A stretch of DNA of 64,000 bases, taken from assembly GCF_003815675.1 (NCBI RefSeq), contig NZ_CP033918.1:1302001-1366000 (forward strand). The letters are read 5' to 3'. How positions within the stretch are numbered: position 1 is the first letter of the stretch; every line of letters begins with the position of its first letter. The position numbers and the translations under genes were made by a program. Below, piece after piece: positions 13,422 to 61,081 of the stretch. The stretch is from Chryseobacterium sp. G0186. GTDB taxonomy: Bacteria; Bacteroidota; Bacteroidia; Flavobacteriales; Weeksellaceae. The notes below the pieces were generated by a model that was given only the letters and a program-made list of their open reading frames with translations, was not told the DNA's origin and searched no databases.

Positions 13422-13531
13422 ATAATAGGCCTATACCCATTTTTTACGCACTGCATGCTATCGGTTTTGTTGATAGGCATAATCCTATAGATCATAAACA
13501 AAAGGCACTGGAATATTTTAAATGAAACATC

Positions 13532-42359: not shown

Positions 42360-42408
42360 ATAGGTGTCAAACTATTACGAAACATCTATCAAAAGATGGG
42401 CTATTTTT

Positions 42409-44343
42409 ATGAAAGAAATTATAAACACATTTGTTGATTTTGCATTGGAACAGAAAGAGCTGCAATTTTCTCCTAATGATCTTGATGCTGTATTAATAAA
42501 AGAGAATATAGTTAAGCAGGAAAATAATTTGCTCTCCATATCAAATTATGAGATACTTATTCCTTATCTTTTTGGAAGATATCAAGATAAATATGGTTTT
42601 CAGATGAGTGACTCTTTTGAAAAAAACATAGAATTTATCATCAATATCTTACAGCACTTTGATAACACTGAAAATTTCCATAATTTTCTGATCTTTGAAA
42701 AAGAAGTTTGGAAATTCATAATAAGAAAGGCTAATTCAAATCATAATGAATCCTTCAATACATTCCTAGAAGCTATTGATTCCGAAAACATTCCTGAATA
42801 TATAAATAACTTCTCTGAGGCTTATTCAAGTTTACTTCCGGAGCTAAATTTGACGGTCGACCAGATTTTAGCAAACACCATTTGTCTAGTGGAAATTACT
42901 AAAAGTGACACTGAGTACAACTTTAATCTAGGTCTAATTTTAAGCGGAATTCGAGAGAAAAGTTATTCAGATTATGATTTTGGCATAGAGCTTCTAAAAA
43001 AATCAGTCGATTTAGAAGACATTAATGACAATATTTTATCTGCGATTGTTACAGGTCTCTACGAAAGTAAAAATATAGTTTTTTATAACGACATTCTAAA
43101 CGAGTTAATAGAAAAGGATCTAAAATTAAATGTCATCTTTTTTGGGCTATCAAAAATTTCAAACATACAAAATAGGGATTGTGATATATTCATTCAAATT
43201 GTAGAAAAGTATATTGGAAGCTATTTATACAAAACCTCTGTGTTAGCACTTGTCTTTACAATATTGAGATCGAGTGAAGAAAAATATCATGCATATTGTT
43301 TTCAAAAATTTCTTCATGAAATTGATAATGAAAATACAGCGCAGTACATTTTAGGAAATTTGATGCTGGTCAAAGAATATTATCCACAAAAAATTGAAAT
43401 TGTAATCAAATTTATAAGACAACCGTATTTTAGTATTGAAAAACATATTCGTTTACTGAATGGTTTCTTGTGGCATGTAAGAAAAATATGCTTTTTTAAA
43501 AATGTAGTTCTTAATATAACTGATAAAAAGCCATTTAAAAGTTTTATAAAAAGTTTCCAATCATACCTATTTACCTTAGATAAATCTGATCTGGATAGCT
43601 TTTTAATTGATCTTTTAACCAACAATACAGCAAGTAAACGTTTTTTAGGCGTTGAAATCTTTCATTTCCTTTCTGATAGAGTTCCATACATATTTACTTT
43701 AAATATTTTGGAACTATCTCCGCTTTCACAATACAAGCTTTGGATGTCTCTAACCGATGATTTTAATGATCCATCCCAAAGAATTGTTCCCTTACTCCCA
43801 TTGTTAGATTCCAGCAGTGAGCTAATCAGGGAAAGTTTTATATGTAAATTAGAAGAAATATCAGAAGACTATGGAGGGCACGTACCACAGGCTTTAGAAA
43901 ATAATTTAGATCTACAAAATCCATTTTATAAAAATACACTTGAAAGGATTAAAGTTTATATTTCAGAATATTATAAAAAGAATACTGAATTAAAAAACTC
44001 TATTAAAGAATTCAATCCTTATAATACGAATTACAAGTTAATCAGGAGTTTTAATGACTCTTTTCACAAAAGCATGGGGAAATCAATTAACAAAGATCTT
44101 GAAAATGATAGTCTTCTCTCAATCTTAGGAGGAAATACTATACAACTTGCAAAAGGTGGAGGCTTCAGAATGGGAGCAGACCAGCCTATCTCCGAACTCA
44201 GTACTTTTGGTTCCAGTTTTACAATGCCAAGAAGTTATTTCATTAATTATAATAAATATGAAATAGAAAAAGGGTTATATCGAAAAAAAGATTGGTCAGA
44301 TGAGGATTTTGCACAGATAATAAAAACACTTGAAAATGAATAG
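42409..44343 (+). CDS. Alpha-helical protein of a two-gene cargo module, function unknown
   Basis: About 644 aa from the ATG at 42409. I do not recognise the family. The protein is strongly alpha-helical throughout, with repeated leucine-rich helix pairs in the middle (about 180-480) suggesting a TPR- or HEAT-like solenoid, and no membrane segment. The last 80 residues change character: a glycine-rich stretch GGNTIQLAKGGGFRMGADQPISEL, then aromatic FGSSFTMPRSYFINYNKYEIEKG, possibly a conserved interaction tail. It overlaps the nuclease gene that follows, which implies coupled translation and a joint complex. A sensor or regulator role in a defence pair is inference. Confidence 0.75.
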   Translation: MKEIINTFVDFALEQKELQFSPNDLDAVLIKENIVKQENNLLSISNYEILIPYLFGRYQDKYGFQMSDSFEKNIEFIINILQHFDNTENFHNFLIFEKEVWKFIIRKANSNHNESFNTFLEAIDSENIPEYINNFSEAYSSLLPELNLTVDQILANTICLVEITKSDTEYNFNLGLILSGIREKSYSDYDFGIELLKKSVDLEDINDNILSAIVTGLYESKNIVFYNDILNELIEKDLKLNVIFFGLSKISNIQNRDCDIFIQIVEKYIGSYLYKTSVLALVFTILRSSEEKYHAYCFQKFLHEIDNENTAQYILGNLMLVKEYYPQKIEIVIKFIRQPYFSIEKHIRLLNGFLWHVRKICFFKNVVLNITDKKPFKSFIKSFQSYLFTLDKSDLDSFLIDLLTNNTASKRFLGVEIFHFLSDRVPYIFTLNILELSPLSQYKLWMSLTDDFNDPSQRIVPLLPLLDSSSELIRESFICKLEEISEDYGGHVPQALENNLDLQNPFYKNTLERIKVYISEYYKKNTELKNSIKEFNPYNTNYKLIRSFNDSFHKSMGKSINKDLENDSLLSILGGNTIQLAKGGGFRMGADQPISELSTFGSSFTMPRSYFINYNKYEIEKGLYRKKDWSDEDFAQIIKTLENE

Positions 44344-46048
44344 TAATGCCATTATAGTACAGGAATATTTAGCATCCTTAAAGGAAGATTCAGAATTAGA
44401 TTATTTGTTTCCCTTACTACTCAACGTAATGGGATTTAGAATCATACAAACAGCTAAAGAATCAAAGGGACAATCGCAATATGGTAAAGATATCATTGCA
44501 GTGGGCAAAGACAAGAATGGAATTGATCACAAATGGTATTTCGAACTAAAAGGGCATGCTGATAGAGATATCACCCAAGCTACATACTTCAAGACTGACG
44601 GTATCAGAGAATCAATAATGGAAGCTAAAGACACCATTTTCAAGGATTCAAGTATTTCAGATTTTAATCAGCTACCCGTAAAGATTGTTATTGTTCATAA
44701 TGGAGTTTTGAAAACAAACATCCGGAACACCTTTGAAGGCCTAATTACGCGAGAATTTAAGGATGGAGAATTTGAACGTTGGGATATTTACTATTTAACC
44801 GAATTATTTGGAAAATATTTATTCAACGAATATCTACTTTCCGACAGCGACAGCGCTAGATTATTGAAAAAAACCTTAGCATTCTTAGATGCTCCTGACA
44901 ATGAATTTTTAGAATTTAAAGAACTGGTAAATATACAGTTCAAAAGATTTGAAAGAATTAGAAGCAGAGCTTTCAGGAAGTTATTTGCTACATTAAGTCT
45001 ATTAAACTCACTAGTATATCATTATAGTAGTGAAAACAACTACTTATTACCAGCAAAAGAATGTTCTAAATTTTTAATTTTGAAAACTTGGCATTGGATT
45101 TTAGAGAATAATTTACAATCCAAAAAAGCAGTTGTCCTTGAATTTAGAAAACTCCTTAAGAACCAAACTTTAATCTTAGGAAAATATTTCCAAAAAACCT
45201 TTCTAGCAGCAAAGATTGAAAATGGGTTATTTTCCGAAATGGGTGGATTTTACGAGAAAATTGGTTATCCAATAAGATGTTTTGAGTATTTGGATGACAT
45301 CATTTATTATTGTAGATTAAGAAACACAGTATATGAATCGAAAAATATAGAGAAAATTAAAAACAAACAAAAAGACTTAATCATAGAATTGGTAGAAAAT
45401 AATAGTGGCTTCAACAGACCAATTTTTGATAACCATTCAATACCTATAGTCCAATTATTTCTATTTTTTAGTGATAAAAAAACATTGAGACAAAAGGATG
45501 TTAATTTCTTATACAATTACTGTGATCAGGTTGTTTCAAATATAAGAATTGAAAAGATTAGATACAATAGACTACCAGAACTCTACAATAATATTGACTC
45601 AGTTGTCGAGTTTTACTCTACTAATATAAAACCAGAAAACTATAGTGATAAATCCTCTGTCTTACTAGCAATCATGCTGGAATTTAGCATCATTTTTAAT
45701 TCTGAAGATCTGTTTAAACAAATACTATCCTTTATAGATGAAAGCCTCAGTTTACAGATTGTATCAATTGACCCGGCAAAACATAAGGTCGAAAAACTTT
45801 TGTTTGAAAGAAATTTACACAATGAATATTTTGTAGAAACAATTGACAGGGCTAAAGATGATTTAGAATTTTTAAAAAACAGTGGCATACTAAGTGAATT
45901 TAAAAGTACTGTTTTAGAAAAAGTAGAATCGCCTCAGCAATACAATACGGACTTATTGGGGCTATCTTGTATCAGATATCTTGCGCATAGTTATTTTAAA
46001 AATGAAATTTTACCAGATGAATGGAGAGCTTTAATAAAAAAGATATAG
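44336..46048 (+). CDS. PD-(D/E)XK (Mrr-like) nuclease-domain protein
   Basis: About 570 aa from the ATG at 44336, which overlaps the previous gene by eight bases; a TTG at 44330 is less likely. The N-terminal 180 residues look like a restriction-endonuclease fold: LLLNVMGFRIIQTAKESKG, then GKDIIAVG with Asp52 and YFELKG with Glu70 and Lys72, the D...ExK spacing of Mrr-type enzymes. Residues about 190-570 are helical and unrecognised. With the solenoid protein it forms the cargo of the serine-recombinase element. A nucleic-acid-cutting defence effector is the most likely role. The catalytic call is from the motif only. Confidence 0.75.
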   Translation: MNSNAIIVQEYLASLKEDSELDYLFPLLLNVMGFRIIQTAKESKGQSQYGKDIIAVGKDKNGIDHKWYFELKGHADRDITQATYFKTDGIRESIMEAKDTIFKDSSISDFNQLPVKIVIVHNGVLKTNIRNTFEGLITREFKDGEFERWDIYYLTELFGKYLFNEYLLSDSDSARLLKKTLAFLDAPDNEFLEFKELVNIQFKRFERIRSRAFRKLFATLSLLNSLVYHYSSENNYLLPAKECSKFLILKTWHWILENNLQSKKAVVLEFRKLLKNQTLILGKYFQKTFLAAKIENGLFSEMGGFYEKIGYPIRCFEYLDDIIYYCRLRNTVYESKNIEKIKNKQKDLIIELVENNSGFNRPIFDNHSIPIVQLFLFFSDKKTLRQKDVNFLYNYCDQVVSNIRIEKIRYNRLPELYNNIDSVVEFYSTNIKPENYSDKSSVLLAIMLEFSIIFNSEDLFKQILSFIDESLSLQIVSIDPAKHKVEKLLFERNLHNEYFVETIDRAKDDLEFLKNSGILSEFKSTVLEKVESPQQYNTDLLGLSCIRYLAHSYFKNEILPDEWRALIKKI

Positions 46049-46349
46049 CTTTTTTATTATATACTATATTTCAGTTTATTTTTCATTAAATTTAATAAAC
46101 CAACAAATTTAAAACTCATAGCTTTAAAAACAAGACCTAAGAGATTTCAAAGTCGACAGGAGAACCTCATAAACGCCAACGTGATAATAAAAAACTCCCA
46201 GAAATACACCTTCACTTACCCCGCAAGGAAAATAAAATAAGATCTCCAAATTTAAAGGCTTTGGAGATCTTATTTAAAAGCAAATAAGTATGTATTATGA
46301 CAGTTACAATAAATTAACACCTGAAAAATTAGAGTTAGGACTATTCCAG
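46049..46349. other. Non-coding region after the nuclease gene
   Basis: About 300 bases with no gene. It contains the terminator at 46235-46275 that closes the two-gene cargo. Confidence 0.5.
46235..46275. terminator. Strong bidirectional terminator
   Basis: Perfect 16-base arms AAATAAGATCTCCAAA and TTTGGAGATCTTATTT enclose a nine-base loop. It lies between the rightward nuclease gene and the leftward recombinase remnant. Confidence 0.82.
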
Positions 46350-46684
46350 TTATTATTAACAATAGGCACTATATTAGGATACCTACCCATCAACTTAGCT
46401 CAACGAATGCCATTTGCAGTATTTTGAGCCCTCCTGGTATTTTCCGCTTCCGGAACCGCTAAATACACAGCCAGCATAACAGTACTTTCCACCAGCACAG
46501 AGAAATCAATTGGTTGATCAATAGCCTTTGCTGTCGTTTTATATTTTCGCAGCTTTCCAATCATTTTGTAAGCATATTCAACATTACAAATGAATCTGTC
46601 CCATTTTATAAATAGTATGTTTTTATCTTCTCCTAATGATTTCTTTTTAATTTCTGAAAACAAATAATTCATTTTCAAATACAT
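46350..46684 (-). pseudogene. Decayed fragment of the serine recombinase
   Basis: The frame matches about residues 58-175 of the recombinase at 40620-42110 (FSEIKKKSLGEDKNILFIKWDRF, KLRKYKTTAKAIDQPIDFS, AVYLAVPEAENTRRAQNTANGIR), at high identity. It has a two-residue insertion change at FSVLVES, an in-frame stop after NGIR and loss of both ends, including the catalytic serine. It lies on the far side of the two-gene cargo in the same orientation as the intact gene. Confidence 0.88.
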
Positions 46685-46917: not shown

Positions 46918-49020
46918 CTAAACAGCGGCCTCGGTCTGGCCACATTCCTCATCCACAGGTACGATCGTCCAACCTGCCTCCCTAAACTTTTCTACATCTT
47001 GCCCAACGCTATCTCTTCTTATTGCAAAACAGAGCAGATCCGTCGGTCGCGAAAAGCCTACATACATCATTTTTAGCGTTTCATTGGATCTCACCTTATT
47101 TAAATGAGAAAAATCCTGTTCCTGAAAAAACAAAGGATTGCTTCCTATAAAATCGGGTCTTTTCTTTGTTCCTTTAACAAACACAGTCAACTTAGCCAGC
47201 TCGGATGTGTGGTAATCCGTCTCAACATACATAGTTGCACAATGTGTCTGTCCCTTTACCGAATGGATAGATCCTAATTTGACGACAAGATCATCGTCTT
47301 CACCCCCCTCAGATTCTATCATTTCAGCGGCATTGAAATTGAATTCCCTGTTAATAAAACCTTCTGAATTTTCAATTCTAAAATTTCCAATTAAATCGAT
47401 AATTTGATTTCTTATATAATCAACATAATCATCAAATACCTCCTCATAATTTTCTTCAACAACAATTGAGTAACACCAATTAAATAGTCGATTCTTGAAT
47501 ACGTCATAGTATGCATCCCCCTTACTTTTAATCAACTGAACAAAAGTAGACTTACGATACTTTTTGGGAGAATCTCCAGGAATATTAACGCCTTCAATTC
47601 GTAAAATTCTAACAATTCCATTTAAAAGAGATTTCCGCACAGCCTCAAAAGTTGGCTTTTTACGGTCAAACAAAAATATATACTTTCTTAAACAATCGAA
47701 ATCGTCTCTTCCTTTCTTGATCTCCCTCGAATATTCTGGAAAAAGCTTTCTTAAATGCCACCTTTCAGAACCTTCCTCCTTGTCAGTTGTCCAAGCAATG
47801 ATATGAAATCCTCTTTCAATATTTTTAGCATTTTGGTTTAGTCCGAAATTTTTAATTAGTCTGATATATCTTTCCTTAAGCGCCATAGCTTGAGTTTCAT
47901 CCGTAAAGATTAAAAGATGGGGTGGAATTGATTCACGACCGGAAGCACCTACCACCCGATATCCACCACTTCGGTTCAATACGAAGCCATCAACTAGCTT
48001 ACCAATTACTGGTGTCAACCGATGTGAATTAGTCAGACTTAAATCTGCTTGAAATCTTTCAGGATCAGTCTCATTCCGGGTCCTCCAGACAATTTCGCTA
48101 TGTAACGATGAACTAGAGTAAATTGCCTGATTTCGATCGCCAATTCTTTGAATAGTGGTGGCAGAACCTTCAGTAAAGAAAATACCTTCTACTAATTGTA
48201 CCTGATCAAAATCAAGATCCTGCATTTCATCAATAAAAACGTATTTGAACCGACTTTGTAAAACCTCTTTAAGATCAGTTGAACCGGGAAGATTTAAATA
48301 CCTTTTTGAGATATCAAAGCTATCTTTGAATGACAGAACACCTTGGGACAAAAGACTTAACTTCCACCTTTCCAACTCAAGATAGTATTCTCTATTAACA
48401 CCAGCATATGTCAATTTCGAGGTATTACCAATTTTAACCTTTCTTCCATCAAGATCATATGAGCAATCCTTCAGAAACTCTAATATATTTCTTTCCTTTT
48501 CTCTAGATGTACCTACGAAATCTCTGTTAACCAAGCCGAAAAGCTTATTTTTAAGATTAGCAGGATTTTGTCCTTTTCTGGAATACTGAAGGCTTCTATA
48601 AAATGTCTCTACTTCATAGTGGTACATCTCATCGTCATTCTTATGAATATAGCTACCATACAGCTCAAAGCAAGCCTGATTGGCCACAAATTTATTTGTA
48701 AAACTCTGAAGCGTCCCTACAAAATTTGGGTATGCAAAAAGCTGCGGACACAGAGGCTTTAAAGCTTTTTCAATCTCCTGGATGGCATGATTTGTATGAG
48801 AGAGTATTAATACCCCTCGATTCGCCTCCAAGGGCATTTGTTTAGCCAGACAATACAATTTAGCCAGTAAAACTGTAGTCTTGCCACTTCCAGGTACTGC
48901 CAATAAGTCAACCGTATTCATGTTAGCAATAAATGCCCTTCTTTCAGGATCGAAAACCTCCCCGCCTATCAAAATCTCTTCGGCAGCTCTCAAGTGTAAT
49001 GGATCAATTCTCATAATCAT
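46918..49020 (-). CDS. UvrD/Rep-like superfamily 1 helicase (Gabija GajB-like)
   Basis: A 700 aa helicase. Walker A is AVPGSGKTT at residues 41-49, motif Ia SHTNHAIQEIEKAL, Walker B FIDEMQDLD at about 263-271, IQRIGDRNQAIYSS for motif III, SIHSVKGQTH for motif V and MMYVGFSRPTDLL for motif VI. An ATG at 49014 is an alternative start. It overlaps the end of the OLD nuclease gene by 17 bases, so the two are translationally coupled. OLD-nuclease plus UvrD pairs define Gabija and class 2 OLD loci; this helicase is longer than the first described GajB (about 490 aa). Confidence 0.88.
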   Translation of the reverse strand: MIMRIDPLHLRAAEEILIGGEVFDPERRAFIANMNTVDLLAVPGSGKTTVLLAKLYCLAKQMPLEANRGVLILSHTNHAIQEIEKALKPLCPQLFAYPNFVGTLQSFTNKFVANQACFELYGSYIHKNDDEMYHYEVETFYRSLQYSRKGQNPANLKNKLFGLVNRDFVGTSREKERNILEFLKDCSYDLDGRKVKIGNTSKLTYAGVNREYYLELERWKLSLLSQGVLSFKDSFDISKRYLNLPGSTDLKEVLQSRFKYVFIDEMQDLDFDQVQLVEGIFFTEGSATTIQRIGDRNQAIYSSSSLHSEIVWRTRNETDPERFQADLSLTNSHRLTPVIGKLVDGFVLNRSGGYRVVGASGRESIPPHLLIFTDETQAMALKERYIRLIKNFGLNQNAKNIERGFHIIAWTTDKEEGSERWHLRKLFPEYSREIKKGRDDFDCLRKYIFLFDRKKPTFEAVRKSLLNGIVRILRIEGVNIPGDSPKKYRKSTFVQLIKSKGDAYYDVFKNRLFNWCYSIVVEENYEEVFDDYVDYIRNQIIDLIGNFRIENSEGFINREFNFNAAEMIESEGGEDDDLVVKLGSIHSVKGQTHCATMYVETDYHTSELAKLTVFVKGTKKRPDFIGSNPLFFQEQDFSHLNKVRSNETLKMMYVGFSRPTDLLCFAIRRDSVGQDVEKFREAGWTIVPVDEECGQTEAAV

Positions 49021-50821
49021 ATACTTGTTTAATAGCGTTCACCAAATAAGAAAGATACCGATCTTCAGTAATCTGATCAGCCGTTATGGTGGTATCCTCC
49101 AACAACAGTTCAGCAAAAACATTCATAACTGCCACCTTATCTATGGGAGATGTCCCCGATTTCTTTGACAACTTCTTAATAAACTTCCCCTCAAATGAAG
49201 CTTTAAATGCATCATTATCCTTTTGGAACTCTTCTGTTTTACTGTGTACTTGTAAAACTGCTTCCTTAAATATATCAGATAAACAAGAACGATAAAGACA
49301 CCATTCCAGAGTCCATTGTATAGCGATGTTTAATTTTATATCTGTAGACTTGAGTTCACGTTTTAAAACATTAATGTTGCAGAGTTTATTTTTAAACGTT
49401 TTGTCTTCCCTAAAAAAAGACCTGAAAACGCCAAACTCATCAGGTCTATTGTCCAGATCGGTAATAATTGCAATTGGGACATTCATTTTACGAGCATCCG
49501 CACGCAAAAATATTTTCGCAAAATGCAGGTAGGCTGTTGAAGCCACATTGATAACCGAAATTTCTTTCCTGGCGAGATCCATTCTTAATTTAGCGGCCAG
49601 CGTAGGAAGAAGTATCTCTTCAGACCAACCCTCAACTATGATATTTGCCTTTGAAAAGAAAAGGTTACTCTTGGTAACATCTAGGAAACGCTCCAGATAC
49701 TTATAATCCTTTCGATCCAGTTTAGTATTTCCCTCACCTAGCGGGAACACGTCGTTATTTTTACAAATTATAATTTCCCTTAAATCTGCCTGTGAGGTAA
49801 TATTAGGGCTATGGCTGGTAAGGATATACTGAATTCCTACCTCTTTTTTCAACCGATTTATTATTTTTAGCTGCGCTTGTGGATGAAGATGTGCTTCGAG
49901 TTCTTCGATTAAACATAGCTTAAGACCGTTCCAGTCCGCCTTTCTGAGATGGAGCAATTCTGCAGCCATAAACAGCCTATTCATAGTTCCCAAACCCAAA
50001 TTTTTCGCACCGATTATTCCAAGCGACATTTTCTCTAAAATATTGGTAATCTTTGTCGGTCCGAAATCAAAAACAGACTCGGAATTGTCGCCTATGAAAG
50101 AAACGATGAAATCATCCACTACCTTTTTGATATTTGTGTGATAGCCCAGTTGTTCATCTTTAAATTTATCCCTTATCTGCTCACTTGTACCTTCAAACAG
50201 TTCCTCGAATTCGTGCATTCCATTTTCCTGTGTATGCTTGAATTCCTTGTGCTCCTTCAAAATCTGGGACAATCTTGAATTCTTCTTCGCAGCAAGCTCA
50301 TTATCGGCATCGCGTAAAGCTTTAAGGTATGTACATTTGAGATATTCTTTAGCTTCTGCTGTCAACGTATTTCCCACACGGTCCATACCCGCCTTTACGT
50401 CGGTAGGCAAAATCCTGCCATCCTTGTATTCAACCTGATAGATCAGATGCAACTTTGGCCTCCGGAATATCTCTTCCCTACCGCCAACATCCATGACCTC
50501 ATCCTGATTTCCGCACCACTCTATAAAATTGGCAGCTTCGGCATTGGTGATTCCGGAAAATTCCAGTTCAATCCTTAAAATAGGTGAAATGTGATTATCG
50601 TCACTGAAAAAATCGCTCTCTTCGACCTTAATCCATTCATATGCATGTGTTTTTAAAACAAGCTTTATGGCATCAATGATCGCTGATTTCCCCGAATCAT
50701 TTTCTCCGATCAGAATATTCATTCCCTGATTAAAAGATACTGTGAGATGTGGAGAGTTAAGATCAAAAACTGGACTTCCATATTTTCTGAAGTTCCAGAG
50801 TTTTAAAGAAGATATATACAT
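49004..50821 (-). CDS. OLD-family ATPase/TOPRIM nuclease (Gabija GajA-like)
   Basis: A 605 aa protein with an N-terminal ABC/SMC-like ATPase (YISSLKLWNFRKYGSP; Walker A IGENDSGKS at 38-46; Walker B LIEELEAHLHPQAQ and LTSHSPN near 310-345) and a C-terminal TOPRIM nuclease (NIIVEGWSEEILLPTLA, then IITDLDNRPDEFG). OLD enzymes cut or nick DNA under nucleotide control. The coupled UvrD-like helicase downstream makes this a Gabija-type anti-phage pair. GajA homologues are typically 500-650 aa, in agreement. It is divergent from the four-gene GHKL operon across a 298-base gap. Confidence 0.9.
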   Translation of the reverse strand: MYISSLKLWNFRKYGSPVFDLNSPHLTVSFNQGMNILIGENDSGKSAIIDAIKLVLKTHAYEWIKVEESDFFSDDNHISPILRIELEFSGITNAEAANFIEWCGNQDEVMDVGGREEIFRRPKLHLIYQVEYKDGRILPTDVKAGMDRVGNTLTAEAKEYLKCTYLKALRDADNELAAKKNSRLSQILKEHKEFKHTQENGMHEFEELFEGTSEQIRDKFKDEQLGYHTNIKKVVDDFIVSFIGDNSESVFDFGPTKITNILEKMSLGIIGAKNLGLGTMNRLFMAAELLHLRKADWNGLKLCLIEELEAHLHPQAQLKIINRLKKEVGIQYILTSHSPNITSQADLREIIICKNNDVFPLGEGNTKLDRKDYKYLERFLDVTKSNLFFSKANIIVEGWSEEILLPTLAAKLRMDLARKEISVINVASTAYLHFAKIFLRADARKMNVPIAIITDLDNRPDEFGVFRSFFREDKTFKNKLCNINVLKRELKSTDIKLNIAIQWTLEWCLYRSCLSDIFKEAVLQVHSKTEEFQKDNDAFKASFEGKFIKKLSKKSGTSPIDKVAVMNVFAELLLEDTTITADQITEDRYLSYLVNAIKQVYDYEN

Positions 50822-51119: not shown

Positions 51120-52340
51120 ATGGTAAGTATTTTAAAAAATAATGAAAAACTGACCCCATATTCATTCTACACAAGATTTTTACGAGATGTTGCACTGAAC
51201 ATCAAAACAGAGCAAGACATCACATTTAAGTTAGTGGAAAATGGAGATTCTCAAATATATGATTCAGTATATAACATTGAACCCATAACTATTCCCCTTC
51301 TGCTCAGTCTCATTGAACAGCTGAGTAAACATTATAAAAAACCAATCAACTTATCACTGTATAATAATCAGGCAACAAAGCATGTACTTAACTTTCTCTA
51401 CAAAAGTGATTTCTTTTACGTTGCAGGTAACAACAAAAATCCCTATCATCCCTATGGCAGGAATATCCTAAATTTCAAAGAAGAATATTTAGGTGATTTT
51501 ATCACCAACAGACCACGTTCAGAACACCGTGTTCGCTTTTATTCATTATTGGAGAATAATCTGCAGCAAAAGCTTAACGAATTTACGAAAGAGGATGACA
51601 AAAGAGATTATCTGATTTCTGAATACAGTTATATTGTAAGGGATCATTTTCAAGATCTGTTATTTGATAACGCTAATACTGCTGACAAAATTGACATTTA
51701 TGTTGAGATTTTATCCGAATTGATTACCAATGGCGTACTACATTCTAAATCAAACACATTTGCCCTTATGTTTGTTAATAAATTTGCAACAAAATTTTCA
51801 ATATCGGACAATGGAATAGGGCTCGTTCAGTCTTTAAAAACTAAAACTGCAGATTCACTGTATATACCTCAGGAACTGATTCAAAAACTACAGGTAATTA
51901 AGATTTTAAATGTCAATTCTAAGATCCTTGAGAATTTTGATTTTATTATTGAAACTCTTTACTATTCATGCTTGAAAGATAGAAGAGGATTGTTTGATCT
52001 TATGCTATCGGTTGTGCTAAATTCAAATGGTTATTTCAGGTTACATTGTGACAATGCCCAAATTATCATTTCAAGCCGAATGCAAAAAGAACTAAATCAC
52101 CTTTCAAGTCTTCGGAACCAACTTTTCGATATCCATCGAAAAATCTTGATAAATGACGTTACACCCGAATCACAATTACCACATATGCTGCAGCTAAAAA
52201 ATTCAATTTTAGAACACTTCGTTTTGTTGTACGAAAACATCTGCAATAAGTATAACGATGATTACAAATATTCATCCATAAGATTTTTCAATGTTAAATT
52301 TCGAGGTGTTCACATCGAAGTAGAAATACCTAACAATTAA
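51120..52340 (+). CDS. GHKL-ATPase-domain protein, first gene of a four-gene operon
   Basis: A 406 aa protein. The middle carries a GHKL (HSP90/kinase-type) ATP site: N-box EILSELITNGVLHSK at about 197-210 and G1-box SDNGIG at about 229-234. No phospho-acceptor histidine helix precedes it, so it is not an ordinary sensor kinase; an anti-sigma-kinase or MORC-like role is possible. Residues about 50-105 (ITIPLLLSLIEQLSKHYKKPINLSL) resemble a STAS-like fold weakly. The next gene starts two bases after the stop and itself begins with a STAS-like domain. I infer a GHKL-STAS signalling pair. Confidence 0.78.
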   Translation: MVSILKNNEKLTPYSFYTRFLRDVALNIKTEQDITFKLVENGDSQIYDSVYNIEPITIPLLLSLIEQLSKHYKKPINLSLYNNQATKHVLNFLYKSDFFYVAGNNKNPYHPYGRNILNFKEEYLGDFITNRPRSEHRVRFYSLLENNLQQKLNEFTKEDDKRDYLISEYSYIVRDHFQDLLFDNANTADKIDIYVEILSELITNGVLHSKSNTFALMFVNKFATKFSISDNGIGLVQSLKTKTADSLYIPQELIQKLQVIKILNVNSKILENFDFIIETLYYSCLKDRRGLFDLMLSVVLNSNGYFRLHCDNAQIIISSRMQKELNHLSSLRNQLFDIHRKILINDVTPESQLPHMLQLKNSILEHFVLLYENICNKYNDDYKYSSIRFFNVKFRGVHIEVEIPNN

Positions 52341-52342
52341 AT

Positions 52343-53368
52343 ATGATAGTTTCGCAAATAAAAAATGCAAACTTCATATACTTTAGTTTGCATGCAGAAG
52401 AAGTTTTCACTTCCAATTATATTAAAGACAATAACGACGGAATTTTTGTCCGAAGTTTGCAGTATGAAACAGTCTGCCGGCTTTTTGCACATTTACAGGA
52501 GAATCCACCTACCGGAATAAAATATCTTATTCTGGATTTTAGATATATAGAATATTTACAAAATAACATCTTAGATAAAATTATAGAAATCCGAAATCTC
52601 GGCTACAAACTTATTTTTAATAATGTAAATGAAGTACTTATCAAACCTCTTTCATTGGAAAACATAGAGAATGCAAAAAATATTTCCAATGAATTCGGCG
52701 GTTATGATCTATTCTATTTTTTCACTAGCGAAACTGAAGAAATTTACTCGACAGAACTCAGAGCCAATGTTCTTTTCAGAAACCACTTTAAAGAATTGAT
52801 CAAAGAAAAATATATTTCCCCATACAATCAGAAACATGCATCGTCTTTTGTGTATCTACATTCATTTATCGATTTGAAAAAATTGATCAGTGCGGAAAGA
52901 CCATTTATATATTTTGCTCTGTATAAGCTAGCGGTCAAAATGTACGGCAAATGGAAAAATGATATTGATAACAGTCCTATTTTGGTCGGTCAAAGCTTGA
53001 CAAGCACATTTATCGTCTCCATATTATCGAAGCTATTGAAATTAGATATCCTTATTTTTGATAAAATTGGTCCAATCAACAAATTATATAATAAACTTGA
53101 AAAGCATAGTTTTGAAAACACGAAATACATAATCGTTTCTGATCTTGTTTGTCTTGGAACAGAGGTTAAAATAACTAAAAATCTCATAGAATTTTCAGGT
53201 GGAAAATATCTTGGTAATGTTTCTTTGGTTAAAATCGAAACATTGACGCGTGAGGATCTGCAACTGGACAATGTGGATCGGACAATTGCAATATTTTCCG
53301 TTTCTGAACATAACAATGAAGAATTAGGCTACTACATTTATACTAACTTAAAACCACTCAATGCGTAA
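52343..53368 (+). CDS. STAS-like plus phosphoribosyltransferase-like protein
   Basis: A 341 aa protein. Residues about 1-105 look like a STAS domain: KYLILDFRYIEYLQNNILDKIIEIRNLGYKLIFNNVNE has the strand-Asp-helix pattern of anti-anti-sigma factors. Residues about 170-320 look like a type I phosphoribosyltransferase fold: SPILVGQSLTSTFIVSILSKLLKLDILIFD, then a degenerate PRPP loop KYIIVSDLVCLGTEV and GKYLGNVSLVKI. One acidic residue of the loop is kept. It overlaps the phosphoesterase-PRTase gene by eight bases. Whether it transfers ribosyl groups or only binds a nucleotide cannot be told. Confidence 0.68.
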   Translation: MIVSQIKNANFIYFSLHAEEVFTSNYIKDNNDGIFVRSLQYETVCRLFAHLQENPPTGIKYLILDFRYIEYLQNNILDKIIEIRNLGYKLIFNNVNEVLIKPLSLENIENAKNISNEFGGYDLFYFFTSETEEIYSTELRANVLFRNHFKELIKEKYISPYNQKHASSFVYLHSFIDLKKLISAERPFIYFALYKLAVKMYGKWKNDIDNSPILVGQSLTSTFIVSILSKLLKLDILIFDKIGPINKLYNKLEKHSFENTKYIIVSDLVCLGTEVKITKNLIEFSGGKYLGNVSLVKIETLTREDLQLDNVDRTIAIFSVSEHNNEELGYYIYTNLKPLNA

Positions 53369-55181
53369 TATTATTTTACACCTTTCAGATTTGCATGTAT
53401 CATTACACAAGGTTTTAGGAGGTGGGCTGGCTGAAGTCAATTTTCGACTTAACACAGAGACTGATACAGAACCTGGAATGCACTATATTGATAAATTTAT
53501 CAACGTAGTAAAAAGAGACTATTCAGGCGCTAAAATATATCTTTTAATCACTGGGGATATTACCAATGCTGGCGAAATCAAGGAATTTGAGTTTGCAGCT
53601 ATCTTCATTAAAAAGATTATTGATGATCTCAACATTAATAAAGAACATGTTCTATTAGTACCTGGTGATCATGATCTTAACAGAAGATCGATTCAAAACC
53701 TTTATGCTGAAGACGAGAATCCCTCAAGAGCAATCGTAAATGAAACAAAATTTAAAAATTTTTCTAAGTTTTATTCTAACTTGTTAGGAAAGCCATTTGA
53801 TGCTAATAAAGTTATCTTCGATACTTTGTTAGTAGAAGACAGCATTTTACTAATGGGACTAAACTCCTGCTTGGGAATTGATATGAAACAGCGTGATGGA
53901 AGTATTTCAATTACCGCCTTTGAAAATGAATTCAAAAGTATGGAGGAGACGGGTAAAAAGATTATTGCATGTACCCATCACAATATGACAGCAGCATTTG
54001 AGAATAGTAATGCAGGGCAATGGACAAGTGATAATAGAAAAAGATTCATCAATAAATTGATAGAATTTGACATTAATCTAGTACTTTGTGGCAACGAACA
54101 TATCAGTAGCACAAGATCAATTCTAGGCGATCAACTTACCATCAGTGATCCAGGTTGCTTAACCACTTTATCATATGATGCGGCTTTTAAGGTATATCCT
54201 ATTGAAATAGGAGATGATATCGTTCTGCATAATAAAATCTATGCCCTACAAAATATTTCAGACAATGATTTCGGTTATGAATGGGATTTAAGAAGTCACC
54301 ATGCATCGCATCAGCAAGAGGAGTATGTGATTTTCAAAAAACAGCCACCGCAGCTTGATCCAGAGATAATTGAGATAACTGAGGAAGATACAACCGAAGT
54401 TACTACTGTAGCAGAAACTTCAAATACTGATCATGAGTCTTCTGACGAAAATATTTATTATAGTCCAGAATTTACCGATGTTCTATACGACAAAGTAAGG
54501 GATCTTAAAATATTTTACACCGGACATTACCATTATAGTGAAACATCTAGAGCACATAATTGGATTGACGTATCGAAACTTATAGAAAATAAAGATAACC
54601 TGAATTTTTTAAAAAATGCAGTCATTGATGTGCTGGAAAAAAAAATTGGGGAAGAAAATATTGATATGATTGTTGGGTTGGGGTATGAAGGAAATATTAT
54701 CTCAACAAAAGCAGCTATAAAATTTAATAAGCCATATTCCTTTCTACCCTATTCATATAGACATGATGAGCATCACGAATCTGAACGATTGTTAAACTTC
54801 GACAATCCCGACGGTGAATTCAAAAATATACTTATTATAACGGATGTGGTAAACGATGGTAGAACCATCCGAAAACTGATAAAAAAAAGGCAAGATCCGT
54901 TTTTCCGGAACGTAAGTAAAATCTATGTCATATCTCTTTTTTATACCGGGCAACATCCCATTAATAACAATATTTTGAACTATGGATTTTTGCAAATGAT
55001 ACCGAACTACGATTTGGAAAATGATGAAGCAGTCAATAACATCGAATTCTATACTGTTAAGAGTTTAAAAGTAGAAAAATGTCCATATGGAAAGGATTTC
55101 AGGACAGAGTGCTTTATCTATAAAGACGAACTAAGTTGTGTAAATCTATTCTATGATGAACGAAAATATGTTGAGAAGTAA
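53361..55181 (+). CDS. Calcineurin-like phosphoesterase fused to a phosphoribosyltransferase
   Basis: A 606 aa two-domain protein. Residues 1-330 are a metallophosphoesterase with HLSDLHVS (Asp10, His12), ITGDITNAG (Asp66), VPGDHD (102-105, where GNHD is usual), CTHHN (His206/207) and CGNEH (244-247, where GHxH is usual). An acidic linker (about 337-365) leads to a phosphoribosyltransferase domain (385-565) with MIVGLGYEGNIISTKAA and PRPP loop ILIITDVVNDGRT (490-502). It could cleave and rebuild a nucleotide or alarmone. It is third in the tightly coupled four-gene operon. I know of no named system with this fusion. Confidence 0.8.
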   Translation: MRNIILHLSDLHVSLHKVLGGGLAEVNFRLNTETDTEPGMHYIDKFINVVKRDYSGAKIYLLITGDITNAGEIKEFEFAAIFIKKIIDDLNINKEHVLLVPGDHDLNRRSIQNLYAEDENPSRAIVNETKFKNFSKFYSNLLGKPFDANKVIFDTLLVEDSILLMGLNSCLGIDMKQRDGSISITAFENEFKSMEETGKKIIACTHHNMTAAFENSNAGQWTSDNRKRFINKLIEFDINLVLCGNEHISSTRSILGDQLTISDPGCLTTLSYDAAFKVYPIEIGDDIVLHNKIYALQNISDNDFGYEWDLRSHHASHQQEEYVIFKKQPPQLDPEIIEITEEDTTEVTTVAETSNTDHESSDENIYYSPEFTDVLYDKVRDLKIFYTGHYHYSETSRAHNWIDVSKLIENKDNLNFLKNAVIDVLEKKIGEENIDMIVGLGYEGNIISTKAAIKFNKPYSFLPYSYRHDEHHESERLLNFDNPDGEFKNILIITDVVNDGRTIRKLIKKRQDPFFRNVSKIYVISLFYTGQHPINNNILNYGFLQMIPNYDLENDEAVNNIEFYTVKSLKVEKCPYGKDFRTECFIYKDELSCVNLFYDERKYVEK

Positions 55182-55202
55182 CAGTATTTATATAATCTAT
55201 TT

Positions 55203-56198
55203 ATGATAGAAACAGCTATCAGCATATCGGTAAACCGTAAATCCGATATCGAGCTTATAAAAGATATTTTGGTAGGTGAAAGTATTGATACCCCTATCAT
55301 CATTGTCGAATATGAAGATAATTTTTTAATCAGTCTCTCAAGTGACTACGAACATTGGGAGCTTGACCTAGCAATATTGAACCTATTTCCTGCGTATCAA
55401 TTTGTAACACAAGGAAATAATGGTAGAAAAGAAATCAGACTGGAAATAACACGCTATCAATCGGAATTTAGTACCACAGACTGTGGTAGCCCGATCGAAA
55501 ATCCATTAAATGAAACTAAATATTTGGTAAAAGCTTCGCCGAGTAGGCCTGTCAGATTTTCTCCTTTAATTGAAGTTTTATTCGGAAAAGATACCAGAAG
55601 CTATTATGTAAATATAGTAGCAGGCAAAAATACGGCTACAGGAGAACAGGGCTTTCTGCTACTTGATAATTTTTCTGAAAAAAACCAAAACGGAAATCCT
55701 CCAATTTTGAAAGACAAATTGTACAGCAGTCCACAAGATGCGTTTCATAGAGGAATTGATAAAATTGAGGATATTGCCAAAGAAGATTTTTTAAATTACT
55801 TTGAGGTAAAGAAAAAAGAAAGAAGAGAGTTTGAAAAAATTCCAAGAAAAATTATTCGAAATTTTATAAAGGGTTGCAATAGTAAAGATCATGGCCTAAT
55901 CTTCAAAAATGTTTCCAAAAACATTGTTTTTGAAATATCAAGCAACTGGAAAACAGAAACAGTCATAAATAATATCCAAGATTTTCGAAACTATTTTGAG
56001 TCACCTGATGAGGAAATCTGTCAAAAGGAATTTAAGATTCGTACCAAATGGTATTTTGATAATTCAGATGTAGCAATCAATCTAGCTTGTTATACAGCAA
56101 AATCAACTGACCGTCCAAAAACAACAATCAATTTTAGCAGAATGGCATTTACACTAAATGACGTCAATGAAATATCAAAAATCAAGTGGATAAAATAA
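55203..56198 (+). CDS. Unknown protein with NTF2/SnoaL-like C-terminus
   Basis: A 331 aa protein, last in the operon, 21 bases after the fusion gene. The N-terminal 200 residues are not recognised; they are mixed alpha-beta (AISISVNRKSDIELIKDILVG, YYVNIVAGKNTATGEQGFLLLDNF). From about 215 on (IRNFIKGCNSKDHGLIFKNVSKNIVFEISSNW ... FKIRTKWYFDNSDVAINLACYTAKS) the pattern is that of an NTF2-like cone fold. Such domains bind small ligands or act in toxin/immunity pairs. A ligand-sensing part of the system is inference. Confidence 0.6.
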   Translation: MIETAISISVNRKSDIELIKDILVGESIDTPIIIVEYEDNFLISLSSDYEHWELDLAILNLFPAYQFVTQGNNGRKEIRLEITRYQSEFSTTDCGSPIENPLNETKYLVKASPSRPVRFSPLIEVLFGKDTRSYYVNIVAGKNTATGEQGFLLLDNFSEKNQNGNPPILKDKLYSSPQDAFHRGIDKIEDIAKEDFLNYFEVKKKERREFEKIPRKIIRNFIKGCNSKDHGLIFKNVSKNIVFEISSNWKTETVINNIQDFRNYFESPDEEICQKEFKIRTKWYFDNSDVAINLACYTAKSTDRPKTTINFSRMAFTLNDVNEISKIKWIK

Positions 56199-56505: not shown

Positions 56506-57465
56506 TTAATCATCCTCTTCTAACAATCTTTTATGCGCATAACATACAGCTCCTTCATACGCTTCTTCTAAGTCAAGTGATGTGCCACAAACGTGACACT
56601 CTTTATTAACTTGGATATAACCGCAAGAAAGACAACAATCATCCTCAAAAATATAAGTAGGTTCATTACAATCAGGACAATCGGCATAAGGACTATCACC
56701 TCCATCCATAATCGCAATATGAGCTTCAATTCCAAATTCTTCTTCTAAACAATCGTTGAGAACATCTTCTAGATCGAACTCATTTCCACATTTTTTACAA
56801 TTTAAGGCTAATGGTCGTCCTGGTTCATATACTTGATCTTTTATCGCTTGTACAAGTTCAGAATCACATTCTGTGCACCGAACATGTTGTATTGCCCTAG
56901 CAAGTGAAGAATAAGTCCAATTGACTTGATTAAATGATTCTATACTTTCTTCCTTTTCTTTTTCATAGACCTCATCTACTTCTAAAAAAATGTCCCAAGA
57001 TGACTGTTCCAAAAGATCAGCTGCCTCTATTTCTAAATAAGTTTTAGAAAAATCACGTATAATTTTAAATGACTTAGAAACAATCTCATTTACAACCGAA
57101 GGTGCTTCATCTGTATAATAATGCTCAATGTTATTCCTAAGTTTGTTAATCTGATCAAAAGCCATCCAGTCTACTTGAATACCTAGACCTCCAAACCTGT
57201 CCTTTATTTGTTGTACATCAACAGTTTTTTTTCCAGATCCTAGAAATGACCAATCTCCATTAGATCCCATTTTCGGTTTTATACTCTGTTTTATTAATAC
57301 ATCATCACTTCCTTCCGGCGACATTCTACGTAACTTTTCTTTAAATAAAAGAAGCATACCAGCGAAAATATTCCTAATTGCAGATTTTGACCTCCTTGGG
57401 TCTTCGCTTTTGTAGTCTTCCAAGCCTATTTCGATCGCATCAACTGCGTTTTCTAAAATCTTCAT
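56506..57465 (-). CDS. HEPN-like and multi-zinc-ribbon protein
   Basis: About 319 aa from the ATG at 57465 (a GTG one codon earlier is possible). The helical N-terminal half contains FDQINKLRNNIEHYY; RNNIEH fits the R-N-x3-H signature of HEPN ribonucleases (near residues 111-116). The C-terminal half carries five paired-cysteine knuckles (CTEC, CKKC, CPDC, CCLSC, CHVC), probably two or three zinc ribbons. Alone on its strand at the island edge, it could be an abortive-infection-type RNase or an RNA/DNA-binding regulator. The HEPN call depends on a short motif. Confidence 0.65.
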   Translation of the reverse strand: MKILENAVDAIEIGLEDYKSEDPRRSKSAIRNIFAGMLLLFKEKLRRMSPEGSDDVLIKQSIKPKMGSNGDWSFLGSGKKTVDVQQIKDRFGGLGIQVDWMAFDQINKLRNNIEHYYTDEAPSVVNEIVSKSFKIIRDFSKTYLEIEAADLLEQSSWDIFLEVDEVYEKEKEESIESFNQVNWTYSSLARAIQHVRCTECDSELVQAIKDQVYEPGRPLALNCKKCGNEFDLEDVLNDCLEEEFGIEAHIAIMDGGDSPYADCPDCNEPTYIFEDDCCLSCGYIQVNKECHVCGTSLDLEEAYEGAVCYAHKRLLEEDD

Positions 57466-57468
57466 CAC

Positions 57469-58582: not shown

Positions 58583-59938
58583 ATGGGAACTTGCAAGATA
58601 TTCATAGTTGATGATGATCCTTTTTTTGGAGAAATGTTGAAATACCATCTCCAGCTAAATCCTGACCATGAAGTTCACATTTATAAGAGTGCAAAGGAAT
58701 GTCTTTCGGAACTTTTTCTTAATCCTGATATTATCTGTATTGATTTTGGACTTCCTGATATTCAAGGTGATGAACTTTTCAAGCAAATCAAAAATCTGTA
58801 TCCTGATCTTCCCATGATCGTTATCAGCGGACAGGAAAACATAGAGGTGGCCATCAATTTTCTAAAACAGGGAGCAAAAGATTATATCGTAAAAAACGAG
58901 CACACAAAAGAACTCCTGTGGAATTCCATTATCAGGCTGAAAGAAAATATCTTGCTGAAACAGGAGGTGGAAGACCTGAAAGATGAACTTGAAAAAAAAT
59001 ATACTTTCGAGAAAACCATCATTGGGCAAAGCGAATCTATAAAGGGGGTATTTTCAAAAATAAATAAAGCCCTAAAATCCAGTATTAATGTTTCCATTAC
59101 CGGAGAAACGGGTACAGGAAAAGAAGTGGTGGCGAAAGCCATTCATTATAATTCACCTAGAAAGAACAGACCTTTTGTAGCGGTGAATATGGCTGCTATT
59201 CCTAAAGAACTTGTAGAAAGCGAATTTTTCGGTCATGAAAAAGGGGCATTTACGGGAGCTGCGGAAAGAGCTTCCGGAAAGTTTGAGCAGGCTAATGGAG
59301 GAACCATTTTTTTGGATGAGATCGCAGAGCTTGATCTCAATATACAAAGTAAACTGCTCCGCGCCCTACAGGAAAGAGAAATCACAAGAGTAGGCGGAAA
59401 TTACAAAATTAAATTGGATATAAGAATTATCATAGCTACCCACAAAAACCTCGCACAAGAAGTAAAAAAAGGCAATTTCCGGGAAGATCTTTATTACAGG
59501 ATTGTTGGTCTTCCTATTGAACTTCCACCTTTACGAGAAAGAGATCAGGATACTTTAATTCTTGCAAAACATTTCATCGAAGTGTTTTCAAAAGAAAATA
59601 AAATTAAACCTTTGGGATTATCTGCTGAAGCCAAAAAAAAGCTTCTTGCTTATCGTTTTCCGGGAAATGTAAGAGAACTGAAATCTGTCATTGATCTGGC
59701 CTGTGTGATGTCTGATCATCCTGAAATAATGGCAGATGACATTAGTTTTTATACCCTTGAAAAAGATTCAGAATCTTTTCTCGGCGAGCAAAAAACATTG
59801 AAACAATATACTACAGATATCATTTTACACTTCCTGAAAAAAAACAATAATGATGTGATTAAGACATCAAAGGTTTTGGATATAGGCAAGTCAACAATTT
59901 ATAATCTTATTAACAGTGCTGAAATAAAAAAATACTAG
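58583..59938 (+). CDS. Sigma-54-dependent response regulator (NtrC family)
   Basis: A 451 aa enhancer-binding activator. Receiver domain 1-120 with the FIVDDDP acidic pocket and phospho-acceptor Asp54 (ICIDFGLPD). AAA+ domain about 143-375 with Walker A GETGTGKE (174-181), the sigma-54 contact loop GAFTGA (221-226) and Walker B GGTIFLDE (239-246). The C-terminal Fis-like HTH (TTDIILHFLKKNNNDVIKTSKVLDIGKSTIYNLI) binds DNA. It should work with RpoN and be phosphorylated by the hybrid kinase two genes downstream. The FIST gene starts right after its stop. Confidence 0.93.
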   Translation: MGTCKIFIVDDDPFFGEMLKYHLQLNPDHEVHIYKSAKECLSELFLNPDIICIDFGLPDIQGDELFKQIKNLYPDLPMIVISGQENIEVAINFLKQGAKDYIVKNEHTKELLWNSIIRLKENILLKQEVEDLKDELEKKYTFEKTIIGQSESIKGVFSKINKALKSSINVSITGETGTGKEVVAKAIHYNSPRKNRPFVAVNMAAIPKELVESEFFGHEKGAFTGAAERASGKFEQANGGTIFLDEIAELDLNIQSKLLRALQEREITRVGGNYKIKLDIRIIIATHKNLAQEVKKGNFREDLYYRIVGLPIELPPLRERDQDTLILAKHFIEVFSKENKIKPLGLSAEAKKKLLAYRFPGNVRELKSVIDLACVMSDHPEIMADDISFYTLEKDSESFLGEQKTLKQYTTDIILHFLKKNNNDVIKTSKVLDIGKSTIYNLINSAEIKKY

Positions 59939-61081
59939 ATGAAAGTTGCCAAATTACTTTTTATAAACGGAGAATGCAGATACGAAAGGAATGATGAAAA
60001 TCTTGACTATCAAAAAGCTCAGCTGGTAATAGGATACGGAGCAAGACACCTTATTGAGAACAATGACTTTTATTCTCAGTTAAAAGAGAAGTTTCCTCAT
60101 GCAGAGATTGCCTTATCATCATCGTCCGGAGAAATTTTTTGTAACGAAGTATATGATAATACATTGGCCGTTACCATTATCAGTTTCTCAACATCTTATA
60201 TTAAAACTTCACAGATTAATATAGAAGATTTTTCGAACAGCTACGAAGCTGGGAGAACCCTTATGGACAAACTTCCTAAAGAAAACCTCAAATGGGTATT
60301 TATTTTATCAGATGGCAGTGGTGTCAACGGCAGTCAACTGGTTCAGGGACTGAACACCGGACGCCCTGATCATGTATTAATTTCGGGAGGATTGGCTGGT
60401 GATGGAGACAAATTTGAAAAAACAGCAGTTGGATTAAACCAGGTCCCCTCATCTAATCAGATTGCAGCGATTGGTTTTTATGGAAAAAATCTGGAATTAT
60501 CTCATGCATCTTACGGAGGCTGGGAAAGTTTCGGATTGGAAAGAACCGTTACCCGTTCTCATCATAATATTCTATATGAAATCGATCATAAAAATGCCCT
60601 TGATCTTTATAAAAAATATCTTGGAAAATATGCAGAAGAACTCCCGGGTTCAGCACTTCTTTTCCCTCTTTCTCTTAAATCTGATGATGTTTCCTCTCCG
60701 GTTGTACGTACCATCCTGTCTATTAATGAGAAAGATAATATGATGGTCTTTGCAGGTGATCTTCCCGAAGGAAGTAAAGTAAGATTTATGAAGGCGAATA
60801 TGGACCGGCTGATTGATGCCGCCAATGATGCTGCCTGTGAATGTCTTGAAATAAGTCATCATAAACCTAAAATGGCAATTATTGTAAGCTGTGTCGGAAG
60901 AAAGTTAGTTTTAGGAAACCGGATTGTGGAAGAAGTAGAAATGGTAAGGGATGTTTTTGGCTCTGATACCATCATTACCGGGTTCTATTCATATGGAGAG
61001 ATATCTCCATTGAAACCCTTTGATGATTGTGCCTTACACAACCAGACTATTACCATTACCACCGTTAACGAAACTGAATAA
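59939..61081 (+). CDS. FIST-domain sensory protein
   Basis: A 380 aa protein with FIST N and FIST C domains, thought to sense small ligands such as amino acids. Recognisable blocks are LVIGYGARHL, ALSSSSGEIF, NTLAVTIISFS, LISGGLAGDG and the C-terminal GFYSYGEISP. No membrane segment. The gene abuts the sigma-54 activator (no spacing) and precedes the hybrid kinase by two bases, so FIST protein, kinase and activator probably form one signalling unit in which FIST feeds the kinase. Confidence 0.9.
   Translation: MKVAKLLFINGECRYERNDENLDYQKAQLVIGYGARHLIENNDFYSQLKEKFPHAEIALSSSSGEIFCNEVYDNTLAVTIISFSTSYIKTSQINIEDFSNSYEAGRTLMDKLPKENLKWVFILSDGSGVNGSQLVQGLNTGRPDHVLISGGLAGDGDKFEKTAVGLNQVPSSNQIAAIGFYGKNLELSHASYGGWESFGLERTVTRSHHNILYEIDHKNALDLYKKYLGKYAEELPGSALLFPLSLKSDDVSSPVVRTILSINEKDNMMVFAGDLPEGSKVRFMKANMDRLIDAANDAACECLEISHHKPKMAIIVSCVGRKLVLGNRIVEEVEMVRDVFGSDTIITGFYSYGEISPLKPFDDCALHNQTITITTVNETE

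Follow-up and report, generated by a model that had tools for sequence, protein, structure and literature searches.

A conserved three-gene operon of Chryseobacterium sp. G0186 as a probable switch-controlled bacterial defence

In the VapKSC operon, a GHKL kinase phosphorylates a STAS antitoxin and a PIN toxin is freed; the operon protected against one phage by about 2 logs, and 103 of 289 VapKSC-type operons were located at most 10 kb from another immune gene (Chambers et al., EMBO J 2026, PMC13373217). DS-8 and DS-9, which are DefensePredictor systems, protect Escherichia coli from phage, and their predicted phosphoesterase catalytic residues are essential (PMC13092281). We compared these systems with an operon in a stretch of 64,000 nucleotides of Chryseobacterium sp. 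G0186 (NCBI RefSeq assembly GCF_003815675.1, contig NZ_CP033918.1, positions 1,302,001 to 1,366,000), here called the window. The genes g1, g2 and g3 of this operon (the trio) encode a predicted GHKL ATPase, a STAS-like protein fused to a phosphoribosyltransferase (PRTase) fold and a phosphoesterase fused to a PRTase domain, and the trio is probably a new switch-controlled bacterial defence. The domains, motifs, gene order and gene company described below come from sequence or from structural models.

A preliminary description of the locus had listed four rightward open reading frames (ORFs) with gaps of +2 (g1-g2), -8 (g2-g3) and +21 (g3-g4) bases, and their coordinates, sizes and spacing all held:

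51120-52340, plus strand: g1, 406 amino acids (aa); alpha/beta N-terminal domain (about residues 1-135) and SpoIIAB/RsbW-like GHKL ATPase domain (about 136-406)
51525-52337, plus strand: predicted GHKL ATPase domain of g1 (fold matches, Pfam on relatives, motifs)
52343-53368, plus strand: g2, 341 aa; STAS-like N-terminal domain (about 1-130) and type I PRTase-fold domain (about 140-318)
52343-52732, plus strand: STAS-like domain of g2 (profile comparison, alignment)
52760-53365, plus strand: PRTase-fold domain of g2 (predicted structure)
53361-55181, plus strand: g3, 606 aa; calcineurin-like metallophosphoesterase and C-terminal PRTase domain
53361-54260, plus strand: metallophosphoesterase domain of g3 (profile matches, active-site motifs)
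54513-55178, plus strand: PRTase domain of g3 (Pfam, position of the loop for phosphoribosyl pyrophosphate, PRPP)
55203-56198, plus strand: g4, 331 aa; separable and outside the core; its end is weakly SnoaL/NTF2-like, and it occupies the variable position downstream of g3

A scan for promoters and terminators found sites no more numerous than in shuffled sequences. The closest relative of g2 among the matches listed was from C. nakagawai (94% identical).

Scanning named bacterial genomes with the g2 alignment gave 20 loci (L numbers below; G numbers are genomes), and g1, g2 and g3 were adjacent, in order and on one strand in 19 of them, the other locus (L025) beginning inside g2 at a contig end. 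Imperfect loci among the 19 were L019, which leaves its contig inside g3, L007 and L014, in which g3 is interrupted by a stop, and L011, whose g1 ORF has only 313 aa. With four further genomes (L047, L051, L079 and L081), and with L126 left out as a repeat of L020, the three genes were direct neighbours in the order g1, g2, g3 at 23 of the 24 loci beyond the window. Gaps within the trio, taken from the earliest starts, ranged from -38 to +6 and from -86 to +9. The g2 proteins of the 24 loci were at most 94% identical to each other; the islands of L079 and of the window are closely related, and L047, which belongs to a distant lineage within the phylum, keeps the gene order at about 20% identity to each window protein. 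As judged from these alignments, the co-conservation of g1, g2 and g3 is not chance. The preliminary description had treated all four genes as one conserved set to be sought across genomes; the search recovered the trio and not the set of four, g4 being separable.

On the genomes sampled, the trio is rare and patchy, in Flavobacterium-type bacteria. Of 173 genomes of the genus, 6 had a g2 relative, as did 5 of 348 in a second genus and 5 of 395 in the order; at an E of 0.001, the phylum sample gave 6 of 395 (four weak) and the class sample 2 of 395 (one weak). The weak phylum match G016 is a real remote trio, and the fetched sequence of the weak phylum matches G228, G004 and G384 had no core-profile match. 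A further weak match, G1211, had an E of 8.8e-4.

The evidence on g1 supports an anti-sigma-type GHKL domain with intact ATP motifs, as predicted from sequence and structure. This assignment, already made in the preliminary description, rests on a second-look structure aligner, on Pfam matches of relatives and on motifs. HATPase_c was detected in 23 of 24 g1 relatives at an E of up to 0.5 (best 6.2e-5; window g1 0.096, under the Pfam threshold), and the top fold matches of the predicted g1 structure were SpoIIAB and RsbW. The N-box and DxGxG motifs were kept in all 121 aligned proteins (the g1 and g2 alignments held the window protein and the best 120 of 370 g1 relatives and of 271 g2 relatives, respectively). 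The Pfam scan of g1 found no histidine-kinase phospho-acceptor domain, in line with the kinase-acceptor-free ATPase first described. By eye, the N-terminal domain of g1 could pass for a STAS-like fold such as VapK has, but profile comparison gave this no support. The g1 sequence profile gave two rows only against solved structures (0.041 and 0.083), which we took as chance, and profile alignment of g2 with g1 detected no relation.

The start of g2 is STAS-like with moderate support from profile comparison, which upholds the earlier assignment at that strength. In hhalign, the N-terminal domain matched STAS_2 with P 2.5e-4 and DUF4325 with P 2.4e-4 (hhalign probability 43-44%), and the best of 29 control slices against STAS_2 had P 0.031. 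The STAS_2 profile was built from 28 of 30 fetched loci (L106 and L107 left out) and the DUF4325 profile from six of eight (L083 and L090 left out). The PRTase-like fold also claimed for g2 was seen in the predicted structure, without a Pfam match, and the g2 sequence profile had no match to solved structures up to an E of 1. The PRPP-loop position reads S-D-L-V-C-L-G-T-E, with S-D in 121 of 121 proteins; only D, G, T and E of this loop are kept in the remote copy L047. The canonical PRPP-loop motif used for comparison has two acidic residues. A loop with both acidic residues, as in the nucleotide-salvage PRTases APRT and OPRT, is present in neither g2 nor g3.

The phosphoesterase-PRTase fusion described for g3 was supported by Pfam, NCBIfam and structural matches. 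Residues 2-253 matched NCBIfam DS9_1_antiphage (E 1.2e-22, 80.4 bits vs. a curated cut-off of 420), and DS8_antiphage also matched (E 7.6e-17, 60.3 bits vs. a cut-off of 790); the matching part is the first 250-300 residues of g3. The profile match to the solved structure 2xmo (LMO2642 protein) had an E of 4.8e-14, and the phosphoesterase motifs DxH, GD, GDHD, HHN and GNEH were complete in 18 of 18 aligned rows. The C-terminus is Pfam Pribosyltran, over threshold (1.9e-6; 27.8 vs. 26.3 bits), and its PRPP-loop position reads T-D-V-V-N-D-G-R-T, with T-D in all 17 rows that have letters. Three PADLOC models matched g3 in part: Effector (3.1e-12), PDC-S60 (9.9e-9) and, over the PRTase part, PDC-M27A (3.6e-4). 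In the PADLOC and NCBIfam scans, g1 and g2 had no PADLOC family and g3 had only these partial and below-cut-off matches, with no full-length match to a named system for any of the three, in agreement with the preliminary description.

By its recognizable genes, the neighbourhood of the operon in the window is a defence island. From left to right, it contains a serine-recombinase-like ORF, the ORF 5' of OloB, OloB, GajB and GajA, the operon and a PDC-S64 homologue:

40620-42110, minus strand: serine-recombinase-like ORF, by eye; left of Olokun
42364-44343: ORF in the OloA position, 5' of OloB and overlapping its start; placed by position
44330-46048: OloB (PADLOC 1.2e-120), part of an Olokun-type pair
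46918-50821, minus strand: Gabija pair, GajA 3.9e-207 and GajB 6.3e-263 (PADLOC), divergent from the operon
56506-57468: homologue of the PADLOC candidate PDC-S64 (3.2e-58), with zinc-ribbon-like cysteine pairs by eye

The Gabija-like pair had been noted back-to-back with the operon and is confirmed there, with 298 bases between GajA and g1. The gene on the other side had been taken for a HEPN-motif gene; it matches the PADLOC candidate PDC-S64, and the Pfam scan found no HEPN-named model for it. Around trio loci in general, 140 neighbour proteins of 20 loci matched 152 PADLOC families at 1e-10 and 129 control proteins matched five, a ratio that overstates gene number because families were counted and one protein can match dozens. 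The neighbours were 140 of 237 ORFs of at least 120 aa, scanned nearest first; the controls were 129 of 271 ORFs, those closest to the centres of 20 randomly placed 17-kb stretches in 10 single-contig genomes of the phylum (one genome, G308, has a trio at another site). The flanks of trio loci are defence-rich on this check, which the preliminary description had proposed. Relatives of GajA and GajB (6e-15 and 8e-12) begin at 4.8 kb in L017, HamB and PtuA/PDC-M01A flank L051, Cas8b flanks the remote trio L047, and putAbiC is located 18 bases upstream of g1 in L009. Other neighbours were Upx (L013), BrxH/DrmD-like (L007) and DpdF/PsyrT-like (L021) proteins, and members of one integrase-type family lie downstream of the trio in L007, L013, L018, L021 and L024 (checked with Pfam on L013).

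Partial copies of the 5' third of the recombinase ORF (146 nt at 86% and 179 nt at 95%) were found at 46345-46670, on the far side of Olokun, and hint at a trace of how the island was built. To the right, at 58583-61081, a sigma-54-type response regulator-like ORF (by eye) is directly followed by a FIST-domain sensor protein (FIST 2.5e-41, FIST_C 4.9e-35). A capP-type match (8.9e-16), of the immune-operon regulator type, was found at 7296-8546 of L012, 231 bases upstream of g1.

The position behind g3 is variable; g4 fills it in the window, and no common receptor or effector gene is located directly behind most trios. Genes detected there, within 40 bases of g3 and on its strand, were:

L020 12847-13347, L022 12853-13410, L023 12924-13457 and L025 2294-2809: stand-alone CinA/PncC-type genes in Flavobacterium trios, 4-37 bases behind g3 on the same strand
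L018 (Empedobacter brevis) 12911-13993: RES-domain gene, 2 bases behind g3 (PF08808 5.3e-6, modest)
L017 12955-14433: protein of 492 aa starting 10 bases after g3; Pfam gave nothing at 0.01

Two CinA/PncC-type genes were scanned and matched PF02464 (7.7e-32 and 5.3e-34); the other two were assigned by homology. The three CinA-bearing trios with a complete g2 are diverged (39-50% g2 identity; the 115-aa g2 fragment of L025 is 50-68% identical to the others), so the link between CinA and trio is older than one recent insertion. The residues S31, G46, S48, Y58, K63, T105 and G106, listed for active NMN (nicotinamide mononucleotide) deamidases of the PncC type (PMC3855486), are kept in all four proteins; NMN activity is possible, not certain, on these residues. 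The C-terminal part of the L017 protein resembles an abortive-infection or HEPN-type helical end, by eye. In L026, a second GHKL gene, for a 660-aa HATPase_c_3 protein (1.2e-6), stands at 12959-14941, 103 bases behind g3.

The interactions, trigger, substrate and defence role that we infer would combine as follows. g2 would be an adaptor or antitoxin onto whose STAS-like domain g1 docks. Dimers are usual among type I PRTases, and the degenerate PRTase domain of g2 may pair with that of g3 and hold g3 silent. g1 would sense infection, with single-stranded DNA or an altered nucleotide pool as candidate triggers, and would use ATP to shift its grip on the STAS-like domain, upon which the g2-g3 pair would rearrange. 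The freed phosphoesterase would attack a nucleotide-type substrate, pyridine nucleotides being one guess, leading to cell arrest or to loss of a metabolite required by the phage; whichever gene follows g3 in the variable position (CinA/PncC-type, RES-type or g4) would be an optional add-on. That the trio is a three-gene, toxin-antitoxin-like anti-phage (abortive infection) module is, in our estimate, an evenly balanced proposition. The detailed version is tentative, and we would not expect it to hold in every part: GHKL-STAS docking by ATP, without serine phosphorylation, would remodel a heterodimer of two catalytically retired PRTases and free the phosphoesterase onto pyridine or other nucleotides, and some lineages would add an NMN-deamidase-family enzyme.

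Several results weigh against this mechanism. The STAS acceptor column of g2, in the register of the hhalign alignment, holds Ser in 26 of 121 proteins, Pro in 43 and Ala in 32; the flanking residues Q73 and N75 are kept in 120 of 121, and even these are lost in the remote L047 protein. Because the acceptor of SpoIIAA, CapS and VapS is not conserved and Q73 and N75 are lost in L047, the published phospho-switch cannot be assumed; either another residue would therefore be phosphorylated or the switch would need only ATP-dependent binding. The pairing of the two PRTase domains is a guess, and no alignment was obtained between the profiles of g2 and g3. Foldseek with g1 returned no row under an E of 0.001; the N-terminal domain of g1 gave P of 0.19-0.98 against the STAS_2 and DUF4325 profiles, and the fold search barely covered it. 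No g2 relative was found in the plasmid, phage or viral-contig collections searched, and six of ten large neighbours, hand-picked by size, had no PADLOC family at 1e-10. In the CinA-type proteins, N60 of YxNxxK is replaced by R or P, block P-IV reads S/T-A-E-S, which is closer to S/T-A-V-S, as in inactive one-domain homologues, than to G-A/V-V-S, and the AGPxGG part of block P-VI is lost (PMC3855486).

Signal synthesis is a fairly unlikely alternative, in which the PRTases would join a base to PRPP, the phosphoesterase would trim, the CinA-type protein, where present, would edit and g1 and the STAS-like domain would gate or read the signal, a scheme that has been put forward for Ter biosynthetic modules. 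The parts are suggestive, with two PRTase folds, a phosphoesterase and, in four trios, a member of a mononucleotide-amidohydrolase family, and Ter biosynthetic modules are described as PRTase and HAD-phosphoesterase signal makers (PMC7824862). However, both PRPP loops are degenerate, one usual acidic residue being missing in each of g2 and g3, g2 also lacks the usual Thr positions, and most trios are without the common downstream receptor or effector gene. It is improbable that g3 is a NAD-directed effector that cleaves NAD+ or a related dinucleotide while a CinA/PncC-type or RES gene handles or adds to the loss of pyridine nucleotides. RES toxins reportedly degrade NAD+, to go by the title of a paper, and the L018 RES gene and the four CinA/PncC-type genes with their seven active-PncC residues agree with such a role; however, the RES match is modest, an add-on is present in only 5 of 24 loci (two of the 24 hold fewer than 100 bases behind g3), calcineurin-like enzymes act on many phosphoesters, and the CinA-type departures given above count against it. 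Distinctly improbable is a stress regulator, that is, a partner-switching module that tunes nucleotide pools and reached the islands only through mobility. GHKL/STAS modules are mainly regulators of stress and development, and PRTase folds can be pure ligand sensors, PurR being among the fold matches of g2; the patchy distribution, the defence-rich flanks and the kinship of the g3 domain to DS-8 and DS-9 argue against it.

A four-gene system as first listed has hardly any likelihood left: in the window, g4 starts 21 bases after g3 on the same strand, and the closely related G459 island also has g4 downstream of g3, but no g4 relative was detected in the 20 scan loci (L014 and L019 hold fewer than 100 bases behind g3 and L015 640), g2 and g4 are split within the genus, and G459, which shares the window's island, has g4 broken by stops and g1-g3 intact. 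Among the 173 genus genomes, g4 was found in 18 and g2 in six, both together only in the window genome and G459; 16 of the 18 g4-bearing genomes had no g2 and four of the six g2-bearing ones had no g4. The NTF2-like end first read in g4 has weak support (SnoaL_2 in 9 of 36 relatives at an E of up to 0.1, best 2.3e-4). A HEPN match had an E of 0.057 in the window protein and occurred in 2 of 36 relatives, and the g4 sequence profile did not match solved structures.

If the switch-controlled defence is real, the kinase-STAS control unit of VapKSC would be a plug-in immune switch of general use, able to drive nucleotide-type enzymes as well, and in immunity PRTase folds could serve as assembly parts, not catalysts. 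The operon is small, its active-site residues are clear and its natural add-ons (CinA/PncC-type, RES) point to a class of metabolite, which makes the idea directly testable. No description of the trio was found in the literature searched; we do not claim its absence from print, as a 2023 study may cover it. That study, by Nicastro et al. on nucleotide-targeting effectors, is said to name Calcineurin-CE and PRTase-CE domains and may touch on the trio.

The phosphoesterase domain of g3 belongs to the same family as those of DS-8 and DS-9. DS-8 carries a NACHT fusion and DS-9 has a HAD phosphatase as its partner (PMC13092281), whereas g3 is joined to a PRTase and scores far under the curated cut-offs of both. 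ShosTA-type and retron PRTase effectors also place a PRTase-fold protein in defence (PMC9122126). The Foldseek list of g2 includes ShosT 8zvd (E 2.8e-4) and 8zvc (2.1e-3), with a whole-chain template-modelling score of only 0.26-0.27, and the Pfam scan found neither a DprA-like antitoxin nor a reverse transcriptase among g1-g4. ShosTA is not known to have STAS or GHKL parts. The trio shares with SpoIIAB-SpoIIAA and RsbW-RsbV a GHKL fold, ATP motifs and a STAS-like partner next door; it differs in that the acceptor serine is not conserved in g2 and that the nine window proteins scanned included no sigma factor or PP2C phosphatase.

The GHKL and STAS wiring noted in the preliminary description stands, beside nucleotide-type enzymes in a defence island; the description did not name the published immune precedent, VapKSC/CapKS (June 2026, PMC13373217). 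As described in that paper, these are compact operons of a SpoIIAB-resembling, GHKL anti-sigma-like kinase, a STAS protein and an effector, often near other immune genes and activated by single-stranded DNA. The trio lines up its roles in the same way, with the ATPase first, then the STAS-like adaptor, then the enzyme. g1 has the predicted GHKL domain with intact ATP motifs, by fold and motifs, and the adjacent g2 is the STAS-domain protein with moderate support. In contrast to VapKSC and CapKS, whose Ser/Thr STAS acceptor is given there as absolutely conserved, g2 lacks a conserved acceptor and joins its STAS-like domain to a PRTase fold; as effector, a phosphoesterase-PRTase takes the place of the VapC/PIN nuclease of VapKSC. 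By the tests made on these sequences, the trio is not a member of VapKSC, DS-9, ShosTA or the sigma partner switch; by analogy, it probably works like VapKSC.

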